64,000 bases of DNA from Liolophura sinensis (Eukaryota > Mollusca > Polyplacophora > Chitonida > Chitonidae), in the NCBI RefSeq assembly GCF_032854445.1, contig NC_088295.1:60557249-60621248 (forward strand), in the 5' to 3' direction. Under the pieces are notes generated by a model. It was given only the letters and a program-made list of their open reading frames with translations. It ran no database searches and was not told where the DNA came from. Position numbers and translations under genes: made by a program. Positions 181 through 40,502 of the stretch are shown here, piece by piece (the first letter of the stretch is position 1; each line of letters opens with the position of its first letter).

Positions 181-483
181 GTGTTTTGTTTTATTTTAAA
201 ATGAAATAAATACATTTTGTCTTCATTTCATGAGCAAAAGTTGTTTTAATATTGCTAATAGTCACAGTTAGCACACATTTTATTCCTCAAAACATTTCTT
301 GGTTGAAAATGTTGAGTTTGGAGGCCGTTTTTGGAAGAAGTAAAAAATACAGCACCACACTGCATCACGTGCAGTCTTACACGCCGAACTTACGCATGGA
401 AAGCATGCAGTGTGTGACTATAAAACCGCAACTTCGGGCCGGAAATCGGCGTCTTTCAAGTGGTGTTATCAAGCTGATTCAAC

Positions 484-1518
484 ATGCCACGTCTTGACAC
501 TGTCACAAGAAATATTGCCATTGGAAGACTTCAAGCTGGAGAGTCCGAATCGTCCATTTCTAGGCGTCTACATGTCAGCCAGAACACGATTTCACGGCTT
601 GCTGCCCGCTACAACAATACTGGGACAACAAATAACCGTCGGCGTTCAGGTCGACCACGTGTCACTACAGCAGCCCAAGATCGCTACATAAGGGTCCTCC
701 ATCTGCGTGACCGTTGTGCTACAGCTGAAAGCACAGCAGCCAGCATACCGGGACTGAGGAGGATATCAGGTCAGACAGTGCGGAACAGGCTGAGGGAACA
801 TGGACTGAGAGCCAGGAGGCCCTATGTTGGGATCGTGCTGCGTCCTCACCATCGCGCCAATCGCCTCCGATGGTGTAACAACGTGACTGCATGGAATCTA
901 CGCAACTGGCGACGCATTTGGTTCAGTGATGAGTCCAGGTTCCTATTGCAGAGACGTGATGGTAGAAACCGGGTTTACAGACGTGCTCACGAACGTTATG
1001 CCCCTAACTGCGTACGCCAAGTGGACAGATTTGGTGGAGGGAGTGTGATGATGTGGGCAGCTGGTCGTATAAATCTTGTCCACGTTCAGGGAAATCTTAC
1101 GGCCGTACGCTACCGAGACACCATCCTGCAGCCACACCTCTTACCTGTCATTGACGTTCAGAGGGAGTTGTTCCAGCAGGACAACGCCAGACCGCACAAG
1201 GCACGTTTCACAAGGGACTTCCTCGCCGAAAACAATGTAAATGTGCTACCTTGGCCGTCCCGTTCCCCGGATCTTAACCCAGTTGAGCATCTGTGGGATG
1301 AACTTGATCCACGTCTACGCCAACGTCAATCTCAACGCCAAACGCTTCAAGAGCAAGTTGCATGTTTGCAGGAGGAGTGGCAGAACATTCCCCAGGCCTC
1401 TATCCAGCGTCTCATCCAGTCCATGACAAGGCGTGTCAGAACTGTTATTCGTGGTGGTCACAACGTGGCCACAACAGATACTGCACGTGGTGCCCGTGGT
1501 GGTCACAACAGATACTGA
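484..1518 (+). CDS. Tc1-like transposase, 344 aa
   Basis: This is a cut-and-paste transposase that binds the element's own ends and cuts and rejoins DNA in the nucleus. The N-terminus (about residues 5-60) is a helix-turn-helix of the paired type, followed by a GRPR-containing basic linker (RRRSGRPRV). The catalytic core shows the first Asp in WFSDESRF, the second in QQDNARPHK and the Glu in PDLNPVEHLW. I count 34 residues between the second Asp and the Glu, giving the DD34E signature of the Tc1 group. Length matches the family's usual 340 or so residues. There are no internal stops or frameshifts, so the protein could be functional. The start at 484 gives the full helix-turn-helix, and an overlapping frame from 410 is a shadow. 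Confidence 0.93.
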   Translation: MPRLDTVTRNIAIGRLQAGESESSISRRLHVSQNTISRLAARYNNTGTTNNRRRSGRPRVTTAAQDRYIRVLHLRDRCATAESTAASIPGLRRISGQTVRNRLREHGLRARRPYVGIVLRPHHRANRLRWCNNVTAWNLRNWRRIWFSDESRFLLQRRDGRNRVYRRAHERYAPNCVRQVDRFGGGSVMMWAAGRINLVHVQGNLTAVRYRDTILQPHLLPVIDVQRELFQQDNARPHKARFTRDFLAENNVNVLPWPSRSPDLNPVEHLWDELDPRLRQRQSQRQTLQEQVACLQEEWQNIPQASIQRLIQSMTRRVRTVIRGGHNVATTDTARGARGGHNRY

Positions 1519-7410: not shown

Positions 7411-7643
7411 CCTGTTGCAAGAACAAGTAATCAGTTATCTAACTTGTTTGTTAATGCCACCCCAATAAGTAAGGGTTTTTTTTAACCCTTCAGTTGTTAA
7501 TACCAACGCTTTATGAAATGCCAAATATTGGACTGTGCCATGTGCAATGTTATATGCAATATTTATAATGACATCATATCTTTCTTGTAGATATAGTCTT
7601 CACACGAAGTCAACAATGCTGAGCCCTGTGTTTTCAATTTCAG

Positions 7644-7940
7644 GTGTTCGTGCCCTTACATCTGCATGTGATCAGTTAGTTGGGGGTCAAGTTATCCTGA
7701 GAGGCACGTTTGATAGCATCCCTTTAGGTCCGGTTAACTGGATAAGGCCTGATGGTATAACTGTTGGTTCCTGTAAGGCGAATGAAACATGTGACACAAA
7801 CAGTACAGGATATGTTGTATCGCAATCCTCTACTTTAAACTATACCATTGTGATAGCATCGGCTACCAGTGTAGACGCTGGGGGATGGACATTCGAGGAC
7901 GCCATAAACACCGTCAAATTCAACCTTGAATTACTATCGG
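7644..7940 (+). CDS. Gene A exon 2: Ig-like domain 1 lacking core cysteines
   Basis: A 99-codon phase 1-1 exon between TTTTCAATTTCAG and GTCAGT. The Ig pattern is visible: VGGQVILRG for the B strand, VNWIRPDG for the C strand with the core Trp, and SVDAGGWTFED for the F strand. The two cysteines that normally bridge strands B and F are absent. The first position is Gly (codon 7703-7705, GGC) and the second is Phe (7892-7894, TTC), each one base from TGC. Other cysteines (SACDQ, GSCKANETC) may form a different bridge. Probably an extracellular ligand- or partner-binding domain. Confidence 0.72.
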
Positions 7941-8169
7941 GTCAGTATTTGCAGGCACTTTATATTTTCTATTGAGGTTTCACAAATTAGTCTGGCAAAA
8001 TAAAAGAAACGAAATATATATATATGTAAATTGCCTGGTGCATGACTGCACATACCTACAAACCGAACTATGCTTTCACAACTGCAGTTTAACTCCAGTA
8101 CTCTTAGTTACATTCCTGCTTTTCCATATCTACTACATGAGTGTATGTCCGTCTGACAACAAACACTTC

Positions 8170-9680: not shown

Positions 9681-9743
9681 TCCGTGGGTGAGTTGCCGCC
9701 TACTATTTCTCATTGCTTATCAGACATTTTTTGTTTGTATCAG

Positions 9744-9880
9744 TGAATCTTACTACAGTTGACGTGTCTTGTGGTAATTTGTCTGGTGAAACCATCAGCG
9801 TACAGCGTGATTCAGCAGAACAGGTGACATGTAACACCGACTGTATACCAGGGAACTGGACGCTAACCTTCAGTCTGGAG
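9744..9880 (+). CDS. Gene A exon 3: first half of Ig-like domain 2
   Basis: Acceptor TTGTTTGTATCAG, donor GAG|GTAAAT; phase 1 in, phase 0 out. It encodes VDVSCGNLSGETISV followed by EQVTCNTDCIPGNWTL, with a candidate B-strand Cys and a Trp. The domain is completed by the exon at 10809, so this Ig domain is divided by an intron, unlike those of gene C. Confidence 0.6.
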
Positions 9881-10597
9881 GTAAATACATATACACCTGT
9901 CATGATTCAAGCATTACAAACGACCCATCATACTTCTGACGATGAAAGCATTCACTTACGCACTCATAATTACATTCTGGCTGGGTAAGCGCCTCCATGT
10001 AAACAAGATATTAAGTGAAATGCACCATTCTTTCCCAGGGGCTTGTAAATCGCATACATCTGTCGGCCATTGTGTAAGAGATCTCGCAATCGCAATGCGG
10101 CTGGTTATTATCAAACTCATGAGGTGTCCAAATAAATATCTCCGTGAGATAAAATGCCGTCTGTTCAGTCTAGTCTAATCTACTTTAGTATACAATGCGC
10201 TCCAATGAAATCAGTAATATCGTACCACGTGACTGTGGTGTACATGTACTTGGAGCGATATTGGATCCCAGAGAGCCGTATTATTTTCATCTTCTCAATA
10301 GTATTTTGCGGAATTTTCAAATCAACAAATAATGAATTTTATTCCTCAGTCAACATTTCAACCTCATCAGAAACGCTGTGAGCAAACGATACCCTAAAAT
10401 GCTTTAGCATATAAAATTACTTTCCTTAACTGCTACCACACATGATGAAAATAATTTCGCTCTCTCTGGAGCCTAATACCGCTCCACGTACACGACGGTC
10501 ACGTGATACGATATAACCCATTTCATTGGAACACGTTTCTAGCTGTATAATAATATAGCATAGTGTGGTTGCTTACAGTATTATAAAGCATATAGTC

Positions 10598-10690: not shown

Positions 10691-10808
10691 AAGTATGTAC
10701 ATGCAGTATACTAGTATAGTATAATATCTTCAGATGTACGTTGTCTCCTGATGCGCTAAGAGCATAGTCTGTGTATAAATATTTTCTCTAACCACATTCT
10801 TGTTTAAG

Positions 10809-11019
10809 AGTCAAAATGGAACAGATATTAGTGTGGAGTACAACGTTCGCAAGTCATTGGTCGCATGTGCCATTGGTTGTGGGATGAGGCACATCTCAAC
10901 CTTCACCTTGAGGAACAGCCAAGAACATCAGCCCGGAAACTACACACTGTGCTATGTTTTAACAGATAGGGAGCGTAACAAAACGCAAACCTATGATGAG
11001 TGCACAAGAGTTGTTTTTC
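10809..11019 (+). CDS. Gene A exon 4: second half of Ig-like domain 2
   Basis: Acceptor TTCTTGTTTAAG, donor C|GTGAGT; phase 0 in, phase 1 out. It ends the domain with a typical F strand (QPGNYTLCYVLTD) carrying the second core Cys. N-glycosylation sequons (NYT, NGT, NKT) suggest an extracellular location. The acceptor is unusual in having AAG and a nearby AGAG, so the precise start could shift by 2 nt; 10809 keeps the frame. Confidence 0.65.
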
Positions 11020-12590
11020 GTGAGTATCGATGCTTTATACGAACTTTATGAATGTTTAGCATGTATATAATTGTTTCAAGGTCAGAGCGAACAAAAGTGC
11101 GCTGCGTGGGTAAACTACAGATAATGGTCTAGTTACTGACGTGTGACGTACATCATACTGTTGGGAGACGCAGCTTATCAACTAACCTCGGACACGGTTT
11201 TATGCTTTTCTTACTCTTAAGCTTATGCTCTTAAAGATCTATTCTCCTTTACCTGAATAATTTCATTCAAATTCGACATGTGTGTAACACTCCTAAACCA
11301 TGAAGGTGCGTTACAAGTCAACAATCGAAGTAGGCCTACTCATTTTCCAAATAGGTTAAAATTTCGAAAGAGTTATGTTAGACAGTTATACACGTAGTAT
11401 CATAAAACAGTTGATTTTCTAGGTACGCGTACTAGGTCGAATACATGAATAAGTATCTCAGTGTGGCTTTAATTGCAAATGTTCATAGCGCATGCATCGG
11501 ATGCTTATTCATGAAGGTATAGCCTCTGGGGAAGCGGAATTACGTACGTTTAAACTGTAACAGTTATGGAACAGGCCGTCAAAGATCCTGGGTACTTATT
11601 CAACAAGTGTTAACACCCTCTATAGTTTAAGAAACTTAGAGGTAAGGCGTTTGATATTTAAAACATAAGAAGACCGTTTGTTCCATTGGTTGGTTCCATG
11701 GGTGCGCAGACTAAACTACGGACGTTTAGCAAATTTCTGAAGAGCACCCCAGGTGTGACCTATAAATTTGCCCATCATAGAGAAAAAATTGCGTTCATTG
11801 TTTCCTAGGCTCCTCAAACGGTCAGGCGAAAGGAATCTACAAATCGTAGCGTTTCCTGTAGCGACTGGAGCGAAGTCAGCTTAAATCGCTATACCCATGC
11901 AATGTTATAGTAAAATTAACAGGCGGTTAATCGTAATGTGTAGACAACCGGGAAATGTCCCAGTTTTTGACGGTATATAACATTCAACCATATGTTGCGT
12001 TATTACGGCTGTTTTAATATTTTTCTCTCATGAGATACTTGTTTTGTCGATGCGTTACAGCGGTTGATATGAGGGTAGAAATGATTCAAAATTCAAAATA
12101 TGTAACAAATCATTACCTAACCAATCGAAGGCTTCAAAATACAATAGGGCTCCTTCCAACATTTGGGGGCCTGGTCCCACTGCTTTGCAGTACTTGGATG
12201 GATTTTTTCATGGAAAAAAACAAAAAAAAATACCCCCAAAACAAAAAAAAAACCTCCTTGAAATCATAATGATTCAGAATGCAAGGTGTGCTTTTTATTT
12301 TATCGAAAGGTAACAGCAACACCAAAGGCAATCCTCGCCAGTTTATAACGCCTATTACTGCCAGAATTTAGTTTCGAGAAACGAAACTCAAATTTTGTAT
12401 TTTGTGTTACAGTTCTACAGACTGCATGAGAAAGCTATGAACAAGTTTGATTTACGTATGCTTAGCTCTCTCTCAAGGCCTTTACTATGATTACCTTTTG
12501 GAGCTGTGTCTGCGAGAAGCGGTCACTAATACAAGGTCTAAAACACTAAGTACACCACAAAAATAGCCTATTAAATTTAACAAAAATTGT
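11020..12590. other. Gene A intron, no gene seen
   Basis: Within the predicted intron after exon 4. No splice-bounded domain-bearing exon was found. It contains A-rich runs near 12210-12260. Confidence 0.45.
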
Positions 12591-22657: not shown

Positions 22658-25600
22658 GTAAGATTTTTGTTAATGCCTATTTACAGCATGATCAATATAA
22701 CCCATATATCGAGGAGGTAATTCATTCATTGTGCACCGTATGATAACTTTTTATGTGAAATTTTGCTTGGAATCTTTCCTGGGCACAAGTTTGCTCAAAT
22801 TTAACCAATACTTAAAAAGTAGGGTAGCCCCTAGTAGCAGGTACTCATGTAATGCAAGGTGGCTGAAATCGATTTCTGAAGTCTTATTGGTATGTTCTAG
22901 GTTCCTCTTAAAAGTCAACAATGCCCAGCTGTTCGAAAGTGTATTAGCTAATACTTATATTAAGTCTTACTTTATATTTAAAATGCAGCCGCACTCAGCA
23001 GCCACTGAAAACTGAAGACTTGACTTAAGGATAAATTTGGCATTAAGTCTCAAACCAGTTTTGAACTACGAGACCCAGATTTTTAAAATGTTATTTTCAT
23101 TTAAAAAAAATAAATAAATAACCGCATGGAAATATCATACAGCGTTGTTGAACTATGACAAAACTACACCAGGAAGAACAATACTCACATTAGACTTTTT
23201 GACACCCTGCACAGAAAAAAAATCCAATACGATGAGCCAACCCACTCTGTTATAGCTAAACAAAAATGACTCGAGCTCTGAAACACTAACACTAAATGAC
23301 GAAATCTAGCTCTACCTCACTTGACAAATTACCACTGTTTCCAAATGAAAACCTAGCAGAAATGTCACACAACGGACTTATTTTTTCGTCACACAGTTGT
23401 TACACCATCCAGTTGATCCACTGAGCAGCTTAGCGTAATAAATAAGGAAAGTAACTCCGAAGAATCTCAGTTTGAGGATCTCAGTATGTCAGCTTTAATT
23501 AATTCAGGCTGGGGAGAATTGCGAAGGTTTATTTACTTGGTCGAAATACTGAGATCCTCAAAATGAATTTCTTAAAAGCTACTTTGTTTATTTATCAGGT
23601 GTTATACTCTCTGGACACAACTAACTGAATAAACCATTACATATTCACCTGGTGATTAGCAATTAGAGATTAGTACAAGGAAAAATAATTGGTTGATTCG
23701 GTGTCAGCATAATGTAACTGAAATGCGTGTAATGTATGGTGTCTTCGGCCTGATACATCAGTGGCCGTAGCGTTTTGGCAGCAGGGGCTCTCCCTTCCAC
23801 AAAAAAAACACATTACATGCACATACACCTTATGACATTTCGTCGTCACATGGCTAAATATTGTTAACTACGACGTAAAACCTCAAGCATACATTCATAC
23901 AGTGTAAATATAATTACATATTTATGACAAATTTTCTAAATTTTCCTCTTTTAAAATATGCCATGTTTTTCCTTAACAATAGGGCGTTTTTCCATGCTGG
24001 ATTAAATGGTTTTTAGTCGGAGCAACTGGGGCCAGGGATATAGAGCCAATGGATTTCTTGCATCACTAAGCACTTCGACATGTTCACTGCAGGTTTGACA
24101 GATCAGGTTTCACTCTTGTTGTTAGTTTCGGGACTCGATTGACATTAGATAGACGTTGAGCAGCAGAGAGCACGCCTAGCTAACTGGTCTGCCTGATATG
24201 TCAAATATGGAACGCAGTCCTTGATTGTAATATTCCAGTTGCAACCCCGTTCACTGTGGTCTTTGCGTTTGGGAGAAAAACTGATTCTAAAAAGGGCTGA
24301 AGTGAGCAAAACACTCTTAATATGCTTGCGTAAAGGGTACCAACGATGAGTGTTGAGCCTAGAAACTTGAAGCTGTAAGTGAAGATAGGCTTTCCGGATT
24401 CATTCATTCAGTCTGCACTGCAATGAGGTACAGGAGTTAAGTCTGGTGTTCGAGTCCATTGTTATGTAGATTGGGTCTTGTGCGATGGAAATTATTGTCT
24501 CGTTGACTTCTGAAAAGACGAGCTTTTGGTTTAATACTACATGCAGGTGATACCCCGAGAATACAAGGGAGGGCTGTGGCACTTGGAAATCCCATGCAGC
24601 ATTGGCGCAGCTTTACATGTATACTTTTCTGTTGATCCACATCAACGTTTTCAATCGTCATGGTATAAGCCTTGGAGTGTCCCTGTTCAGCAGCATAAAG
24701 TAAGTGAGAATCACCCAGGTGTCCCGTTCTTGTTGCCAGTTTGAGGGCAATCAGAACGCTGTTGGTAGGTCACAGGGTTTATTGCTGCGTATGAAGTTGG
24801 GAGATGGTGTTGTGATTCCACTTTTTACTGACAAAGTAATAGCCTTTTCTCGACCACCCGTGAAGAAGTACGTGCGCCACTCGTGTCCCCTGGTCCCATT
24901 GGTATACAAACAGAGAACTGTGTTCAGATTGGCAAAGCCTCACCCGGTTTATGCGCCAAACTCACCTATTAATACATCTGTCATCCTGCATCTACCCTCG
25001 TTGGCCGGTCTACAGTTTGGTTGTGTGGGTATAGGCCAATTTGAATCTCGTTAGCGAATATTATCCCAGGTTTCTTTTTGAAACAGGCAAAAGGATGCCC
25101 AGCACATTTATTAACGCACAAGAATGACACAACTGTGAAGTCTTCAGGAAGCTTGGTAGCAGCGGCTTCGGGAGAGTTCAGAGTGCGATGTGGCGAGTTG
25201 ACCTTGGCGTTGTGGTTGATCTACATCAATATTGTCTTTCTAGAGTCTTCACGTTGGTAGATTTGACATGGTGAAATCGACTGTAATCCTAGTCCTGCTG
25301 ATGCCCTGTGTCGATTTCGAACCTTGCAGTAAGACATCTAAGTATCAGAAGATTTTGAAGTGAAACTGAAAGCCATTAGTTTAACATGTACCCACCTCAA
25401 TTATTTTCCTTTACGTCATCTCTAGTCCTCCCGAGTTTAGAACAGTGTGTGGCGACGGCAACGACCTTCTTCTGTTATAAAGAGATGTAAATATCATAAC
25501 CCTCTAAGTATTCAGACCAGTCCGTTCTGAGATTCGACAGGACGTGATATTGGAACCTTTTCTGGTGCACGGACATGTACACCTAAATACAACCAGAGCC

Positions 25601-26505
25601 CATTTGCACAACATTTTTTTACAGTAAAGTTGTAATTTGGATTTGGTAGCGGTCGAGGTTTTCGTTAAAACTGCAAGTTCTTCAAATTTAATCTCCGAAT
25701 TTAACTACAAATCTTCATGCCTTTATCTCTTCTTATCCTACAGTGCTCACTGTACTCTGTGTGACCGGAAACGTCCAATATGTTGGCAGCCCCTGATTCG
25801 TCACTTACATGTAAATATTTCACTGCAGAAAGTGACAGAAAACTCAGTTATGTTATGCCTAGGGCCTACTACAGTAAATTTCACGCTTTATGACGCTACC
25901 CCCACCCGAGTAAAATGTCGCTCAACGCCCAGTCAGTCCGTCAGCCTTTATCAACGGGACCATTTTGCTTTGGAGTCAAACTTCCACTGGAGCAGCTTTT
26001 GTTCAGTGTGTCTGAGGTGCTTGATGTACATGGTGGCCAAGAATGGATGCGACGCGACCATACTTTGTTGCTTACCTTTATCTGACATATAAGACCTGTC
26101 GCTGGTTAGACAGTCACTTTCATTCAGCTGGTTTATCACACACATGCCGGTCAGTTCAGTTTGCTATGGTATAAGTAATTACTGTCATTTTATCACAATC
26201 TACAATTAAATTCTTATCAGCCTCTATGCAAAATTTAAAAAAATTAATTTTTAATTTCCTGTATGGGAAGCGCAAAATTGCAATAATGAGGTGAGCCTGA
26301 ACTAGTTTACCGCCAGACAGCAACAGTCGACTTATCAATCACCAAGTAAAATACAAATATGACTTTTTGAAGACAATCCCGCCGTGAATACGTGGATCAG
26401 AATGGGTCATATATGTCGGTTTACATTGAATTTGTACGCGCCCTGAAGATGTGACTTTAAAATGTAATTCTTTTTTTGATCTTTACATCCTGTTTCAAGT
26501 TTTAG

Positions 26506-26850
26506 TTGTGTCCAGCTTATCCATAGCAAAACATGATGGCGTCGTAATTGGTCGTCCATTCACCCTTGAATGTACGATAAACAGAACGGTAGGGAACAGG
26601 GACCATGTGAACTGGCAATATTATGGTCGGCGCTTACGTGTTAGCTACAGCGCCCGTGAGTGTATACCTTCAATACCGGTGCGTGTCTCATTTGTCGGTG
26701 AGCAATTTAGAATAACAGGGGGATGTAAAAACATCAATGGAGAAGAGGTCCACGCAGTTCACATAGACAACATCACTGAAAACATGATCGACGGCAGATG
26801 GAATTGTCAATACGGAAACGAAATCGAGTATGTTACTCTTATCCTTCGAG
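26506..26850 (+). CDS. Gene C exon 2: Ig-like domain 1 (V-like)
   Basis: A 115-codon phase 1-1 exon, acceptor TTTCAAGTTTTAG and donor GTAAGT. It shows GRPFTLECTIN (B-strand Cys), VNWQYYGRRL (core Trp) and IDGRWNCQYGN (F-strand Cys). The length of about 115 residues and the extra loop Cys pair (RECIPS, GGCKN) suggest a V-like fold with a second disulfide. N-glycosylation sequons NRT and NIT are present. Confidence 0.85.
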
Positions 26851-27900: not shown

Positions 27901-28212
27901 TACCTGTAACCAGTGTTACACTGACGAAAAGTCTGGATACCGTGAGAGCTGGTGACCACGCCAGTTTTACCTGTGTATCCTCGGCCAGTAAACCCCAGGC
28001 CTGTATAAGGGCGTACATACGGAGTTCCGGCAATGTCCGGGAGCTAGACCCGCGTAAATGCAACCAGGATACCAGCTCGGTACAGACCACAAACCGGACA
28101 TTGACGTTTACAGCTAGTGCCGAGGAGAACGGAGCTGAGCTGTACTGTAACGCCTCCAACAGTGTGATGGATCCTCCTGTACGCTCACGAGTCTACACAC
28201 TAAGTGTGCAGT
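27901..28212 (+). CDS. Gene C exon 3: Ig-like domain 2
   Basis: A 104-codon phase 1-1 exon ending CAGT|GTAAGT. It shows VRAGDHASFTCVSS for the B strand and GAELYCNASNSV for the F strand. In place of the core Trp the C strand reads RAYIRSSG with Tyr. An additional cysteine pair (ACIRAY, RKCNQD) is present. The final split T joins with AT of the next exon to give the inter-domain motif VQYPP. Confidence 0.85.
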
Positions 28213-28566: not shown

Positions 28567-28884
28567 AATAATAGAGCACCAACAAAAGTGATAATTGGCA
28601 AACGGTCACTCGCAACCGGTGAAATTTGACTTTTGGCAGTTTACTCCAGTTGGGATTTTATTCTGAGTGTTCATGTAAATGCTTAAGTTTTCTGAAACCC
28701 TTTGGGGATAAAGCTTGACAAATTTTATATTTTCACATTTTAATTGTTCATTTTCTCATCGTTCCTTTGGATTAGTGATGAAAAGTGTAATTATCAGTAT
28801 CTAAAATTTGACAAAAACGTATAACACAGGCGTTTATCGTTAACCAAGGCAGTCGTGTTTCCTTAGCGATTACTGGGTATAACT

Positions 28885-29106
28885 CACCAGTGGGGATAAA
28901 CGGTTGTGACTACTCATGCTTCACCAGTGGGGATAAACGGTTGTGAATACTCATGCTTCACCAGTGGGGATAAACGGTTGTGAATACCCATGATTCACCA
29001 GTGGGGATAAACGGTTGTGAATACTCATGCTTCACCAGTGGGGATAAACGGTTGTGAATACTCATGCTTCACCAGTGGGGATAAACGGTTGTGAATACCC
29101 ATGCCT
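28885..29106. repeat. 37-bp minisatellite, six copies
   Basis: Six near-identical head-to-tail units beginning CACCAGTGGGGATAAACGG and ending with ATACTCATGCTT or ATACCCATGATT. Very low divergence points to recent expansion. Lies in a gene C intron. Confidence 0.92.
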
Positions 29107-31390: not shown

Positions 31391-31687
31391 ATCCTCCCCA
31401 ATCTGGCATGCTCCTGTCAGGTTATGTTAACAACACTGCCGTGGAGACTGGAGAAACACTGACCTTGACCTGTCGGGTGGGACAGGGGAATCCCCGACCA
31501 ACACTCACCTGGTCATCGGGATGTGGTCAGACAAACACAGTCCCTGGTAACGATGGAAGTCAGCAGATCAGAATCAGTATAGCCGTCAGTCCGTCCCTGA
31601 ACCAGAAGGAGTGTGTATGCGAGGGGAGTCAGGACGGGACGTTGACAAGATGGACGGAGCAGGAAAGCAGAACGTTCAACGTAACCT
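31391..31687 (+). CDS. Gene C exon 4: Ig-like domain 3 (C2-like)
   Basis: A 99-codon phase 1-1 exon, acceptor CTTGACACATTTAG and donor T|GTAAGT. It has the classic pattern VETGETLTLTCRVGQG, NPRPTLTWSSG and then KECVCEGSQDG. With the previous exon's T it starts with Tyr, giving YPPQSG, a common start of nephrin- or hemicentin-type Ig repeats. Confidence 0.88.
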
Positions 31688-31918: not shown

Positions 31919-32249
31919 TTGGACCAGGGAATGCACACCTCGAAGCTGATCCCAGGCAACTCGACGGGAAAGTCAGCGTAGCAGAAAAACAACACAGTGG
32001 CATTTACATGTACCAGTGGCGAGTCCAATCCTGCTGCCGTCCTCTCATGGTACAACAACAGCAGTCCTGTATCAGTAGATGAGATATCAGAAGTGATCTC
32101 ACGGCGAGGGCTCAATCACGGATACCTGACCACACAGCGGTATAAAGTGAGGGCCGATCGAGATCAGGACGATAACGTCATCAGATGTGAGGCTCAAAGA
32201 CCTGGGCAGGCTGCACGTGTATTAACGTCTCTCGTCCTGGATATTATGT
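31919..32249 (+). CDS. Gene C exon 5: Ig-like domain 4 with one-base insertion
   Basis: Acceptor GTTTTGCTTTCAG, donor T|GTACGT. The exon is 331 nt where every sibling phase 1-1 exon is a multiple of three. The entry frame reads GPGNAHLEADPRQLDG, while the Ig core (VAFTCTSGESNPAAVLSWY, then NVIRCEAQRPG) is in the next frame. The switch falls at an A5 run (31985-31989): one A fewer would restore a continuous Ig domain. As written, the entry frame meets TGA at 32080-32082, truncating the receptor before the membrane. It may be an assembly error, an allele or a real lesion. Confidence 0.8.
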
Positions 32250-32537: not shown

Positions 32538-32828
32538 ATGCCCCTGATATTATTTGTAACAGTACTCACACCGTAGTCTTGGAGGGACAGGAAGTAAACC
32601 TTTCTTGTGAGGTAAAGTCGAATCCAACGCCTTCCATTGTCTGGCAAAAAGGCATCCATAAACTAGAGGGCAATATAACAGAGGGCTACCCGCATCCCAA
32701 CAAAGATGCTGCCATGATCGTTTCACTCATTCTGTCATCGGCTGCAATGGAGCAGTCGGGCATATATCACCTCAGCGCGACCAATGTTATTGGTACAGCC
32801 AGAAAGGACATTACCATACGTGTTGTAG
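32538..32828 (+). CDS. Gene C exon 6: Ig-like domain 5 lacking the F-strand Cys
   Basis: A 97-codon phase 1-1 exon, acceptor TTTACTCTTGTAG and donor G|GTAGGA. It shows VLEGQEVNLSCEVKSN, TPSIVWQKG and SGIYHLSATNVIG. The usual YxC is YHL here: codon 32771-32773 is CTC, so the second core cysteine is absent. Another cysteine (DIICNST) sits at the N-terminus. The split codon gives the start YAPD, typical of tandem Ig receptors. Confidence 0.85.
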
Positions 32829-33744: not shown

Positions 33745-34026
33745 AATTTATCCCAGCTACTATCAAAGTTGTTTCCTGTAAAAACGGCCAGGCCTCTCTT
33801 ATTTGGGCCTCCGGGCTTGACGAGTCTGTTTTAAAATATTACAAGCTGGAGTACAGAGGAACGCAAGGGGCCTGGGAGGCAAAACTTGTCAAAAATCCCG
33901 GAAACTTAAAGCTCGTGGAGACCACATTGAATGGCCTAAATCGTGGGGTCACCTACCAATTTAGGATTAAGCCTAACTCAAGTGTTGCCTTGTCGGAGAA
34001 TATAACGTCGGAATGCACAGTTCTTG
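33745..34026 (+). CDS. Gene C exon 7: fibronectin type III-like domain
   Basis: A 94-codon phase 1-1 exon with acceptor TTCTTTCTTCAG and donor G|GTAAGA. It has no ATG, so it is easily missed. The FN3 pattern is clear: IPATIKVVSCKNGQASLIW (strands A-B with the conserved Trp), YYKLEYRG (strand C), TTLNGLNRGVTYQFRIKPN (the LxGLxxxTxYxFRI signature). Two cysteines (SCKN and SECTV) may bridge the ends. It is membrane-proximal, as in many cell-adhesion receptors. Confidence 0.85.
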
Positions 34027-34194: not shown

Positions 34195-35067
34195 TAGCCC
34201 TGGACGATGACACTCGTAGGGTCTCGCGTAGTCATAGCTGGGTCCCTTTTAGCCCGGTGGGATGAATTGTAAAATTTCGGAAAACAGTCGTTTATTATCG
34301 TACCTCGCCCATCCAGCCACTCCTTTGCAATGCTAGGGTCCTAGGGCCACATTCCTGTTAAAATCCTGAGATGTCGATCACCCCAGAGGTAAATATCCAT
34401 TCATATTTATTAAAGTCCCCTTCTCCGCGGACAATTCATTTACGAAATGGCCGCCATATACACGGCGCGCATGCGCGCCCAGGCAGCTTTGTGGCCACAG
34501 ACCCTCTTTAATTTCCCATAAGCGACAATGTTAACGTTTAGCGCTGTAGCTCAGCCCAAACATTGAATAAGCTTTGGTACATACCTGGCCCAGCCTGTGA
34601 GAAAGAAGCCATAAAAATCTTGACATAGGTTGACCGTCAAAATTTGAGCCTTTCTATGCCGGCAGCTTTGAGGGGTGCCTGGCAACACCAAGGGCACGTC
34701 ACTCGCAGCCTCCTCACCACCTGTCTCCTTGTGTCCTCTAGCCCAGGATTTCAAGCTTTCATCCGTAGAACTCATACCTGCCCAAAGCTTAGACAATTTC
34801 CATCATTTTAACACCAAATATGCACCTGTGCACCAAAAACGGCAGGCTGGCAGCAAGAAAAGACTTTACACCCTAAAATACACAGAATTACATTCGTAAT
34901 AAAAACGGAAGTTCTAATGGGGGTCTGTGTCCTTGTAAAGGAGTGGCTGGATGGGCGAGGTACGTCAGTACTCGACTGTTTTCCTAAATGTTATAATTCA
35001 TCCTACTGGGCTAAATGGGACCCAGCCATGACTACGGAGGCCACAAGAGCGTTGTCATCCAGGGTTA
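34195..35067. mobile_element. Non-autonomous DNA element with long inverted repeats
   Basis: About 135-bp terminal inverted repeats (34195-34329 and 34933-35067). The left has TAGCCCTGGACGATGAC, AGCTGGGTCCC and CCTCGCCCATCCAGCCACTCC; the right reverse complement has TAACCCTGGATGACAAC, GGCTGGGTCCC and the same 21-base block. Termini begin with TA, suggesting TA-type target duplication. No transposase frame. The inside (about 34500-34930) is repeated in opposite orientation at 39175-39640. Confidence 0.7.
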
Positions 35068-36211: not shown

Positions 36212-36314
36212 GTGGTCCCCCACAAAGGTCATCCACAGACCAGAACCATGAGTCTGCAGACCAGAATCATGAGTCTACAGACCAGAATCATGAGTCAACA
36301 GACCAGAATCATGA
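36212..36314 (+). CDS. Gene C exon 9: cytoplasmic heptapeptide repeats
   Basis: Acceptor TCTACTTACAG. It encodes SGPPQRS and then four copies of a seven-residue unit (STDQNHE, one with SADQNHE), a 21-nt tandem repeat. The donor GA|GTAATT ends the exon in phase 2. If splicing fails, the next codon is TAA (36316-36318), giving a protein that stops here. Splicing to 36723 keeps the frame and adds the tyrosine motifs. The acidic, hydrophilic repeat may act as a spacer; its function is unknown. Confidence 0.72.
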
Positions 36315-36722
36315 GTAATTTACCATTTCTCTGAACTAATAACCTGGACAGGGCAACTTCAATAAGCCAATATTGCCTATATTAATATAAGCTTTGACTT
36401 CTTTGTAACGTGCTTTGATGTGAGTTTTGGATGAATTTGCGGCGACAAGGTACATTATGCGGTGCTATTCTTTTCGGAGTCCTGTCCCTATTTGTATTGT
36501 CACGCACAACTTCCTCCAGCATCATATACTTGCATGTGAAAGGGAGGCGTAAGGCCCCATTCCAGTAAACATAAGTGCAATATGGTGAATAAATAGTCCA
36601 AGAGAAATAGATCTATTCTGCTGCTTGACTTCCCTTGCGCTCGTTGTTTCTATTTGGCACTTTTACACAGGGTCATCATTCAGCTGTTGAACATAGATAT
36701 ATTTCAACCTATATATTTGCAG

Positions 36723-36769
36723 GAGATATTCCGAAATAAACACAGAGAACCCATCTCACACTAATAGCG
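36723..36769 (+). CDS. Gene C exon 10: tail with YSEI motif
   Basis: Acceptor ATATATTTGCAG, donor G|GTAAGA; 47 nt, phase 2 in, phase 1 out. It adds ERYSEINTENPSHTNS to the tail. YSEI fits the YxxI/L pattern recognised by SH2 domains after phosphorylation. The other two frames contain stops, so the phase 2 entry supports the weak donor of the previous exon. Confidence 0.68.
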
Positions 36770-37065
36770 GTAAGAAACGTTGTTTTTTTTTACACTCTCA
36801 TAACGGTTCAAACGTATAACGCATATACCAGACGTATGAAAACTATTGTTCATTAATTCACCATGACTTTCAGTTCATCGTGTGGTTTCGAGCTGAAAGC
36901 TTGATAAGTCACAGTAACGGATTCTTTTTTTGCGCTTTGTTTTTCTTTTATTATCTCAAGACAATAACTTATATATCGAATGCTTCAAGTTTGTGAGAGT
37001 TTAGAAGTTATTTTACACATTTATTAAAATGTGAAAATCATCCTTGTCATTTGCATTCGTTGCAG

Positions 37066-37101
37066 GAACGTACGAAGCCCTTCCAATGAGACCCATAGCA
37101 G
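37066..37101 (+). CDS. Gene C exon 11: tail with YEAL motif
   Basis: A 36-nt phase 1-1 microexon between CATTCGTTGCAG and GTAACA. It encodes GTYEALPMRPIA. YEAL lies 12 residues after YSEI and 9 residues before YEEI in the joined protein, within ITAM-like spacing. It can be skipped in frame. Confidence 0.68.
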
Positions 37102-39174
37102 GTAACATCCAATTTCACTTAACTGTACATGAAACTCTTTAATGTATATTGCTGTCTTTTGGGGGTCAGGTAGATTAAACATCAACAGAAATGTATTTCC
37201 AGCATATTGTTCTTGGCGACATCAGGATTAAGCTTAAAAAACATCTAGATCTCTATGTATATAACGGAGTATGAAGCATTTGACACATACCACTTCCTAT
37301 GTAAGGCCATTCTTGGCAACATAACTGTTATATCACAAAGCGAACTTGTGTAATCTTAACTTTCTTGACACTGCAGAAAATATCTTTTTTTATTTATGTT
37401 CTAAAACCAATGCGATTTGACTTTTAATAACATGTCAACGAAAATGGATATCATTTTTCTATGTTTTTATTTCAAATTGGCTTCCTACAATTTCCCTTCA
37501 TCATCTGATATGGTATAAATCTCGGTATCGTGGCATACAGTTGTATGGCAGTCTTAATAGGCGTTCCAAGGCGGTAATGGAAGGCTTGCCAACTTTACTA
37601 CAGAAATATTGGCAGCTGTCTTTGAACAGATCAAGTAGGGATAAACTACGAAAGAATAAAGTATGCGAAGTAAAAGCAGAATAGAGAAGACAAGGCAAAT
37701 AACCAGTGAAATCCCACTTCTTGTCAGTTTACCTCATTTAGGTTTAACTGTTCCTGTAGATGGTTAATAGCAGTAATTTGCACCCCCCTAGCAACGTGAC
37801 AAGCATATTTTATATTAACAAGGATATGCTGATGCTGATGTCTGCGTAGATCAAAATAAGCCTCCTCCAGAATGCCTAGCCTAAAAGGGTTGATAGAAGA
37901 CTTATTCAGGAGAGCATATATATTTTTCTGAGTCTATTGGTGAGAATCGCCAGAGGCCCATTATAGCGGCATGAAAAAATGCGAATAAATTGCCAGAAGT
38001 AATTTCACTTACGTACTACGTGTCATTGCGCTTAACGAAATAGACCGTGTGTTCTGGTCAAATATTAGCTTCCTTTTATGGTGTTTTCTCCATAGTTTTG
38101 TCAGGATTTATATGTTATGATTATGCACTGAATAACAACTTTAATTATGTTTGGAGTCGTGTTTTTCATGAAATTCCCTTAGTTTCGTGTCACGAAAGGT
38201 TATCGAATGCGCATACGCTACTTCGAAAGGGTGCATGTCCCCTTTGTCAACACAGCTCAGCGATTTTCATTATACAGAGTACATATACATAGCGCTTTGC
38301 ACTCAGTGATTTTCAGCTTTACCGCTGTAACAGCTTTCTATCACGTAACCTCCAAATATGGTGGGAATTTGAACCTTTTCGCAAGTTGATCGCAATTTGC
38401 GGTAAAACTGTATGTCGTAGGAAATAAATAAGACCAGATTCATGACCAGAACATCCTTACAATATTCATACATTCATCCTAGACCCAAATACATTTGTAT
38501 AACATGGGGACGTAAAAGTTCCAAATATGGTAAATCGGCCTCTGGATAATTTTACAAGTACTGCACCTCCCGCATTTATTAACATACTTGAATGATTTTC
38601 CGCACACATCGCTATCCCTAATCAAACTACGACAAGCAGCTAACTTAAAATATTTAAAGTCAGAAAAGTCTAATCACGTGACAGATTCCGTAACCTGGGA
38701 TCGAACTCTGACATGACTGGCGTGAGTGATACAAACCCAGCGCGATCTGCGTACTGTCAGTTTCCCAGCGTCAGTCATCTTCGAATCTCAGAAATCGAAC
38801 ACCTGGACCAGGACACATGCAGGTATCTGTCAATTACTAGGACCTGGTTAGCATACAGTAAAGAAGACAAGGTTTGCGCAAAGCTAACTTTTAGAAAATA
38901 CATGCACAACATACACTGACACGGATTCGTGATCAGGAAAGAATCTCAACATCAAATTTTTCGTTTCCCATGACGTCACCACTTATGTATCTGTCAAAGC
39001 CTAATTTGCATACATATTGCACCTTTTTTCTGTCCAAATAGCCTCCATAGAACGTTTATTACGTATGCTAAATTTTAAGTCAATCGGACGCGGTGTTTTG
39101 GAAAAAAATGGCTGTCAAATGTTTTCACTTCAATCTAAAATGGCCGCCAGATCACGTGACAGGTCACCCAACTT

Positions 39175-39640
39175 TCTACTCATAAGGACACAGACCCCCA
39201 TTACAACTTCCGTTTTTGGGTAGGGACGATTGTAGTTCTGTGAATTTTAGGGTATAAAGTCTTTTTTTGCTCCCAGGCGTCCATTTTTGGTGCACAGGTG
39301 CATGCTTGGTATTAAAATGCTGGAAACTGTCTAAACTTTGAGGAGGTATGAGCTTTATTGATGAAAGTTTGAAATTCTGGATGAGAGGACACAAGGTGTG
39401 AGGTAGTGATGAGGCTGCGAGTGAAGCGCCCTTGGCGTTGCTAGGCACGCCTCCCAGCTGCCGGCATGGAAAGGTCCAGATTTTGACGGTCAACCTATGT
39501 CAAGATTTTTATGGCTTCTTTCTCACAGGTTGGGCCAGGTATGCACCAAAGCTTATTGGCCACGGAATGTTTGGGACTGAGCTACAGTGCTAGACGTTAA
39601 CATTGTCGCTTATGGAAAATTAATGGGGGTCCGAGGCCAT
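39175..39640 (-). repeat. Inverted copy of the internal part of the 34.2-kb element
   Basis: Reverse complement closely follows about 34500-34930: shared blocks include TTGACGGTCAACC, CATAAGCGACAATGTTAACG, GGACACAGACCCCCATTA and CCATAAAAATCTTGACATAGG (in parts). It lacks the 135-bp terminal repeats. Lies in the last intron of gene C. Confidence 0.82.
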
Positions 39641-40401
39641 AAGAGCACATCTCCAGATCTATCACATACCTAAGCTCCCCGCATTTCTGTTGAAATAAAT
39701 TGAAAGTTAGCTGTATTGTATATTTCAATTTATAAGAATGAAAACTGGCGATTTTTTTTCTGTACTACTTCAGGTTTAGTGACGCCCCTTCCGGCTGTGT
39801 TAAAGTTATCTGCTTGTCTTGGGATGATGTTAGGCCTTAAGATTGCATCTCTAGTGACAACGGCTAACGAGACTGATAAGGAAAAATTGCATTTTTGGAA
39901 TCAACGTTCAAAACTGCATCAGATAAAACAATTTAGTGCAATGCTCTATTTATTTATAGAGGGGTTTTCCTCAAGTTGATAACGATGTTAGTAATTACAT
40001 CCAAACGTCGGGTTAATAAACCAAGAAGTTGTATATCCATAAGAAAGCCTTGTTTAGATTACTTCCATCCCAACTTCTAGATGCCACTCAAACTAGTTAC
40101 TCTTTTGAGGTCTTATACATAATTCAGCCAAACTTTTGATAAGACCAGGTACCTGAATGGCTTGATATCCCTAATAAAGTACTTCTCCAAGAAGAATTAA
40201 GACCAGCGTGTACTACATGTACTTCTCGATGATAACTCTGTGATAAATTTAACATCTGTGTTTTTTTCCTTGGAATGTTTTTTTTTTAAAGCTTAATTTT
40301 TACGATAGAAATATTTCTAGTCTGTTTATTTCTTGTAGCAATTAAACTGTGGCCTTCTTTTCACGAGCAATAATAGGTAGTTTTATTTGTTTCTTATACA
40401 G

Positions 40402-40502
40402 CTGCGCATTACGAGGAAATTTTGCTGCGAAAGGTGCCACCTACCGGATGTTCAGGACCGAGGATGTACGAGAATGTGACTGTTCTAAATATTCCGCACT
40501 AA
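40402..40502 (+). CDS. Gene C last exon: tail with YEEI and YENV motifs, stop
   Basis: Acceptor TTGTTTCTTATACAG, then in phase 1 AHYEEILLRKVPPTGCSGPR continues to MYENVTVLNIPH and TAA at 40500-40502. YEEI is the classic preferred site for Src-family SH2 domains, and YEN fits the Grb2 SH2 preference (YxN). The join crosses a 3.3-kb intron and depends on phase and motif sense, so it is somewhat less certain than the domain exons. Confidence 0.65.

Follow-up and report, generated by a model that had tools for sequence, protein, structure and literature searches.

The predicted cytoplasmic tail of gene C, a gene read inside a 64-kb window of the chiton genome (the whole stretch of DNA analysed, C1 60557249–60621248), probably constitutes a conserved phosphotyrosine docking module of the form YE-x-[L/I]-x9-YE-x-[L/I]-x10-15-YEN. 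The gene itself appears to be best explained as a divergent copy within a chiton family of immunoglobulin superfamily (IgSF) receptors, with Ig domains, one FN3 domain and one membrane helix, that has expanded in tandem.

Twelve exons were predicted for gene C on the forward strand, running from a signal peptide at position 25268 of the window to a stop codon at 40502. By local frame, all introns are in phase 1, except for a phase 2 intron between the first two tail exons. The predicted exons are as follows.

25268..25328, forward strand: exon 1, signal peptide MVKSTVILVLLMPC..., with ATG, a 12-residue mean hydropathy of 2.55 and a GTAAGA donor; ends in phase 1, which fits Ig1
26500..26850, forward strand: Ig1 exon, 351 nt, phase 1-1, with splice sites and weak Ig_2/Ig_3 matches below the cut-off
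27901..28212, forward strand: Ig2 exon, 312 nt, Pfam C2-set_2 at E 1.7e-5, above the cut-off
31391..31687, forward strand: Ig3 exon, 297 nt, Pfam Ig_3 at E 7.2e-7, barely above the cut-off
31919..32249, forward strand: Ig4 exon of 331 nt, whose frame apparently changes near 31960–31990; C2-set_2 at E 2.8e-11 in the second half, above the cut-off
32538..32828, forward strand: Ig5 exon, 291 nt, Pfam I-set at E 4.7e-14, above the cut-off; paralogous exons exist
33745..34026, forward strand: FN3 exon, 282 nt, fn3 at E 4.1e-5 and 24.1 bits, under the cut-off of 25; paralogs at 48–58% identity
35366..35497, forward strand: membrane helix exon, 132 nt, GVGGSVVGLGLFVVVGVFL followed by RR, mean hydropathy 2.27 over 19 residues; paralogs have similar exons
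36212..36314, forward strand: tail exon 1, phase 1-2, with a 21-nt repeat (36235–36316, 3.9 copies) encoding DQNHES repeats and a weak donor at 36315
36723..36769, forward strand: tail exon 2, phase 2-1, YSEI
37066..37101, forward strand: tail exon 3, 36 nt, phase 1-1, YEAL, equivalent to YE-x-[LM] of the paralogs
40402..40502, forward strand: terminal coding exon, phase 1-stop, YEEI and YENV, equivalent to YE-x-[LIVM] and YEN of the paralogs

The Pfam scores of Ig1 and FN3 are below the cut-off, yet both exons are positioned as expected. The earlier note had proposed a receptor with Ig and FN3 domains, a membrane helix and a tyrosine tail, and the predicted model, with a signal peptide, five Ig exons, FN3 and the helix ahead of the motifs, supports a membrane IgSF receptor whose tyrosine tail shows signs of selection. 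Two introns of the gene carry inverted copies of one repeat (34566–34897 and 39226–39557, 332 nt, 86% complementary), and another holds a minisatellite with six copies of a 37-nt unit (28884–29104). Elsewhere in the window, an open frame of a Tc1/mariner-type transposase (478–1518, forward strand, 346 aa) matched DDE_3 and HTH_Tnp_Tc3_2 above the cut-off. Three exon-like frames on the forward strand (7517–7975, 9692–9988 and 10779–11051) look Ig-like by eye, without a Pfam match above the cut-off, and perhaps belong to another receptor gene.

Joining the tail exons, whose phases (1-2, 2-1, 1-1 and 1-stop) agree, gives the predicted sequence YSEI-x12-YEAL-x9-YEEI-x15-YENV-stop, which confirms the four tyrosine motifs and the spacings of 12, 9 and 15 residues reported previously. 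The tail has 95 residues, and each of its four tyrosines stands in a Yxx[LIV] motif, a result matched by 1 of 20,000 composition shuffles (0.00005), and any pair of the type Yxx[LIV]-x6-12-Yxx[LIV] was present in 0.9% of such shuffles.

A search of the genome with the gene C tail alone revealed no matches beyond the gene's own exons, and relatives were therefore sought via Ig5 and FN3, which at E values up to 10 gave at least 77 and at least 42 matches, respectively. Among the FN3 matches listed, a close set (48–58% identity, covering 82 or more of the 93 positions) comprised gene C and 16 other places; 14 of the latter are located at C1:58.27–58.59 Mb, one at 60.50 Mb and one at 62.79 Mb, with damaged or partial copies alongside. 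Ig5 is less alike than FN3 across 17 genes (mean 0.53 versus 0.63, L024 being represented by 37 residues only), and the mean identity among 18 tails, 0.55, compares with 0.37 between gene C and the others. In the neighbouring genes L022 and L023 (C1:58.458 and 58.470 Mb), Ig5 is 0.99 alike and FN3 0.82, a hint of gene conversion.

These data also bear on whether gene C could be a general adhesion receptor outside immunity, docking SH2/PTB or adaptor proteins in the manner of nephrin or Robo, a reading that we consider somewhat doubtful. The ectodomain matched generic Ig proteins in the PDB (Robo2, titin, CEA, NCAM2 and others among the best 60 of 140 matches), as such a receptor might. Pairwise comparison of the listed close pairs likewise revealed no positive selection in Ig5 or FN3, dN being lower than dS wherever dS was computable, with the exception of Ig5 in L024/L025, where dS is zero. 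On the other hand, 16 additional near-full FN3 copies, 14 of them clustered and with damaged ones alongside, would be unusual for a housekeeping adhesion gene, and the greater divergence of Ig5 relative to FN3 also speaks against this role. In the tail, dN was not lower than dS in three close pairs, L017/L020 (dS zero), L022/L023 (0.080 versus 0.076) and L021/L022 (0.207 versus 0.176), which counts against the docking module but is probably the noise of 39–40 codons.

Downstream stretches of 20 paralogs, 7.5 kb each, were examined for tail exons. With the terminal exon of gene C as a query, in a search that required no motif, tblastn matches overlapped the terminal exon in 13 of the 20, mostly weakly (best E 8.5e-4; seven residues only in L023). 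A splice-aware scan detected the 36-nt exon in 17 stretches, the terminal exon in 16 and both in 15, the last figure rising to 17 of 20 after L027 was added by hand following its tblastn match and L032, which has a 42-nt alternative besides the 36-nt exon, following the use of a longer stretch. In these 17 stretches, the family tail ends with a 36-nt exon carrying YE-x-[LM], followed by a terminal exon carrying YE-x-[LIVM] and YEN. Among the 20 scanned stretches, the module was not found in L028 and L030, and L034 yielded the terminal exon alone; these three were excluded, and the set of 18 tails consists of gene C and 17 paralogs. The predicted join of 37101 to 40402 in gene C gains credibility from 17 of the 20 paralog stretches, where the two last exons recur with their order and phase unchanged. 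The scan produced no first-type exons on the reverse strand of the 20 stretches and a single terminal-type one, a real exon identical to that of the neighbouring gene L031 on the opposite strand; neither type was found in the 20 reversed sequences. A genome search with a paralog terminal exon (27 residues, E up to 10) matched 13 places, all in the cluster, and did not reach gene C.

Within the 18 tails, the first tyrosine and that of YEN are present in all, and the middle one in 17, being replaced by F in L027. Every tyrosine position is followed by E in 18 of 18 tails, and both first sites have a hydrophobic +3 residue throughout (L/I in 33 of 36 cells, M/V in three); no variation was seen in the YE of the first motif, the E of the second or the YEN of the last. 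These counts are partly conditioned by the scan, which required Y, E in the first motif or E/D in the others, a hydrophobic +3 residue (S being allowed in the terminal exon), and N/S/D in YEN; it did not require an exon length of 36 (30–45 was allowed), a particular gap, E over D, or N over S/D. The kept codons vary synonymously (TAT/TAC and GAA/GAG). The SH2 domain of Grb2 recognises Y-x-N, and the proposal that YEN is a Grb2-type site was strengthened by the N retained in 18 of 18 tails, while the V of YENV is not retained, the 17 paralogs having A, S or T at this +3 position.

The gap within the YExL pair was judged by the in-phase acceptors present, since in the join used for the 18 tails the terminal exon always begins a set eight bases ahead of the tyrosine and its spacing is built in. 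By this measure a nine-residue gap is available in 17 of 18 tails, and L018 allows only ten. In L015, L017 and L020, two AG acceptors lie three bases apart, and a gap of 9 or 10 is possible by splice choice; in L029, use of a poor in-phase AG would shorten the gap to 7.

The suggestion that relatives should keep the tyrosines thus held among paralogs for YEAL (18/18), YEEI (17/18) and YENV (18/18) and failed for YSEI. No counterpart of YSEI was found among the paralog exons predicted at its place, L016 and L019 having YRGI inside a repeat, and it seems from this comparison to be a fourth site added by gene C itself. The pair formed by YSEI and YEAL therefore looks private to gene C, and YEAL-x9-YEEI alone is family-wide. 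Outside the sample, L051 (which has a stop in Ig5 and is without a listed FN3 match) keeps HYEDLD and YEN, with C in place of the middle tyrosine. The full module was not found in four distant FN3 relatives (L035–L038, on C62, C43 and C18); their frames end in HYEN[LV]PGEK-stop (HYENVAGEM in L035), and L035 has an AYEDVD stretch. YEN may, judging by these frame ends, be older than the YExL pair.

The assembled copy of gene C may not make the full protein, because of the apparent frame break in Ig4, a feature absent from the earlier note, and the weak donor after tail exon 1. The length of the Ig4 exon is not a multiple of three, and its two halves read in two frames. Among four paralogs with a clear match, this exon is open in L004, has both halves in one frame in L005 and L006, and contains a stop in L012. 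One base more or less in an A run would be enough to explain the frame change. The donor at 36315 (TGA/GTAATT) scores −3.1, read-through past it meets an immediate TAA, and an AATAAA is located downstream at 36588. Together with the longest FN3 branch in gene C and the existence of damaged relatives, these features would fit a decaying copy, or a gene making only a short-tail form that ends at the TAA just past 36314. We regard this as unlikely: no further lesion was seen in the rest of the 12 exons, and all three family tyrosines are retained despite the longest branch. Moreover, an Ig4-skipping transcript would stay in frame, since the flanking Ig exons are in phase 1-1, and the HiFi depth of only 14x stated in the genome paper (PMC11068029; Liolophura japonica) leaves room for a one-base assembly error in the A run.

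The conserved part of the tail may act through Syk, SHP2 or adaptors. The strict ITAM is YxxL/I-x6-8-YxxL/I, and the ITIM consensus is S/I/V/L-x-Y-x-x-I/V/L. Two YxxL/I sites in one tail are present in gene C as YEAL and YEEI (in L027 the middle Y is F). The gaps of 9 (YEAL–YEEI) and 12 (YSEI–YEAL) residues, versus 6–8, reject a strict ITAM, and the tail is therefore ITAM-like and is not classed as an ITAM. The ITAM-like spacing claimed in the earlier note is retained as a family feature for YEAL-x9-YEEI but not for YSEI-x12-YEAL, and not in the strict 6–8 sense. Gene C is also rejected as an ITIM protein, having E, G, A and R at position −2 of its four tyrosines.

Proteins that could read such a tail were sought in the same genome. 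A gene at C7:10.46–10.48 Mb contains N-SH2, C-SH2 and kinase exons; the best PDB match of its N-SH2 was SYK (E 1.1e-35), and the kinase exons matched ZAP-70 (E 1.4e-50) and SYK (E 1.3e-47), both ranked under one EGFR-labelled entry. Judging by these matches, a Syk orthologue is encoded in the chiton genome. At C9:22.22–22.23 Mb, two SH2 domains are accompanied by a PTP domain whose signature, CSAGIGRTGTF, was read by eye, and this gene is by its domains an SHP2-like phosphatase. MALT1_Ig gave no matches, its control likewise matching nowhere.

The presence of a tandem-SH2 phosphatase gene would suit an inhibitory receptor, whose paired tyrosines recruit an SHP2-like enzyme, and reference titles in the review PMC11999971 do term oyster IgSF members, IgIT and CgIgIT2, inhibitory. 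L021 has the sole paralog middle motif that fits the ITIM consensus, SHYEVL with S at −2. Such a role is nevertheless distinctly unlikely for gene C and its relatives, given the −2 residues of gene C, the predominance of P at −2 of the middle motif (13 of 18; otherwise S in L021 and in L027, where Y is F, and T, Q or A), the G at −2 of the first motif in 7 of 7 paralogs checked, and the A, S or T at +3 of YEN in the 17 paralogs.

We infer a signalling and immune role for gene C, and its docking partners would probably come from the same class of signalling enzymes that serve vertebrate immune receptors. Under the favoured docking-module reading, the Ig domains would meet a ligand and the receptors would cluster, whereupon a Src-type kinase would phosphorylate the acidic tail tyrosines. 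The paired YExL sites would then hold a tandem-SH2 protein, most likely Syk and less so SHP2, while YEN would hold Grb2, feeding ERK or phagocytosis.

One literature search on immune receptors in chitons yielded no paper. Gene C was compared with receptors of other animals. Nephrin/SNS adhesion receptors combine C2-set Ig domains, one membrane-adjacent FN3 and a tyrosine tail. Gene C shares C2-set Ig domains, one FN3 near the membrane and a tyrosine tail with them, but has fewer Ig domains, and its PDB matches are generic Ig proteins, SYG-2 included (best 60 of 140). Vertebrate ITAM receptors include CD3, FcR gamma and DAP12, as well as FcgammaRIIA with a longer gap. The chiton tail resembles them in its two tandem YxxL/I sites, and a Syk kinase is encoded in the chiton genome; it differs in the gap of 9 versus 6–8 and in having the Ig ectodomain and the motif on one chain, the likeness shown being one of motif. 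In oyster, CgIgR is a further IgSF receptor besides IgIT and CgIgIT2.

The nearest published receptors, by the description given in PMC11999971, are the oyster IgIT/CgIgIT2 group, mollusc membrane receptors that, like the predicted gene C product, combine several Ig domains with a tyrosine motif in the cytoplasmic part. CgIgIT2 of Crassostrea gigas has, according to this review, five Ig domains, a TM region and an ITAM, although a title cited there calls the receptor inhibitory. Compared by description only, the five Ig domains, TM and tyrosine tail would correspond to the predicted model of gene C, in which Ig4 has an apparent frame break; what sets the chiton receptor apart from those of the oyster as described is a tail with the nine-residue pair and YEN, and its place in a tandem family. 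The co-occurrence of Syk and CARD-CC/Bcl10, as argued in PMC5978004, points to ITAM-containing upstream receptors in invertebrates. That the chiton tandem Ig array supplies the upstream partner so far missing from an ancient Syk pathway, as an antigen-receptor-like single-chain unit with a nine-spaced ITAM variant and a Grb2 site, is a speculative and rather improbable extension. The chiton family is a concrete candidate for the predicted invertebrate ITAM-type receptors, with defined residues to mutate.
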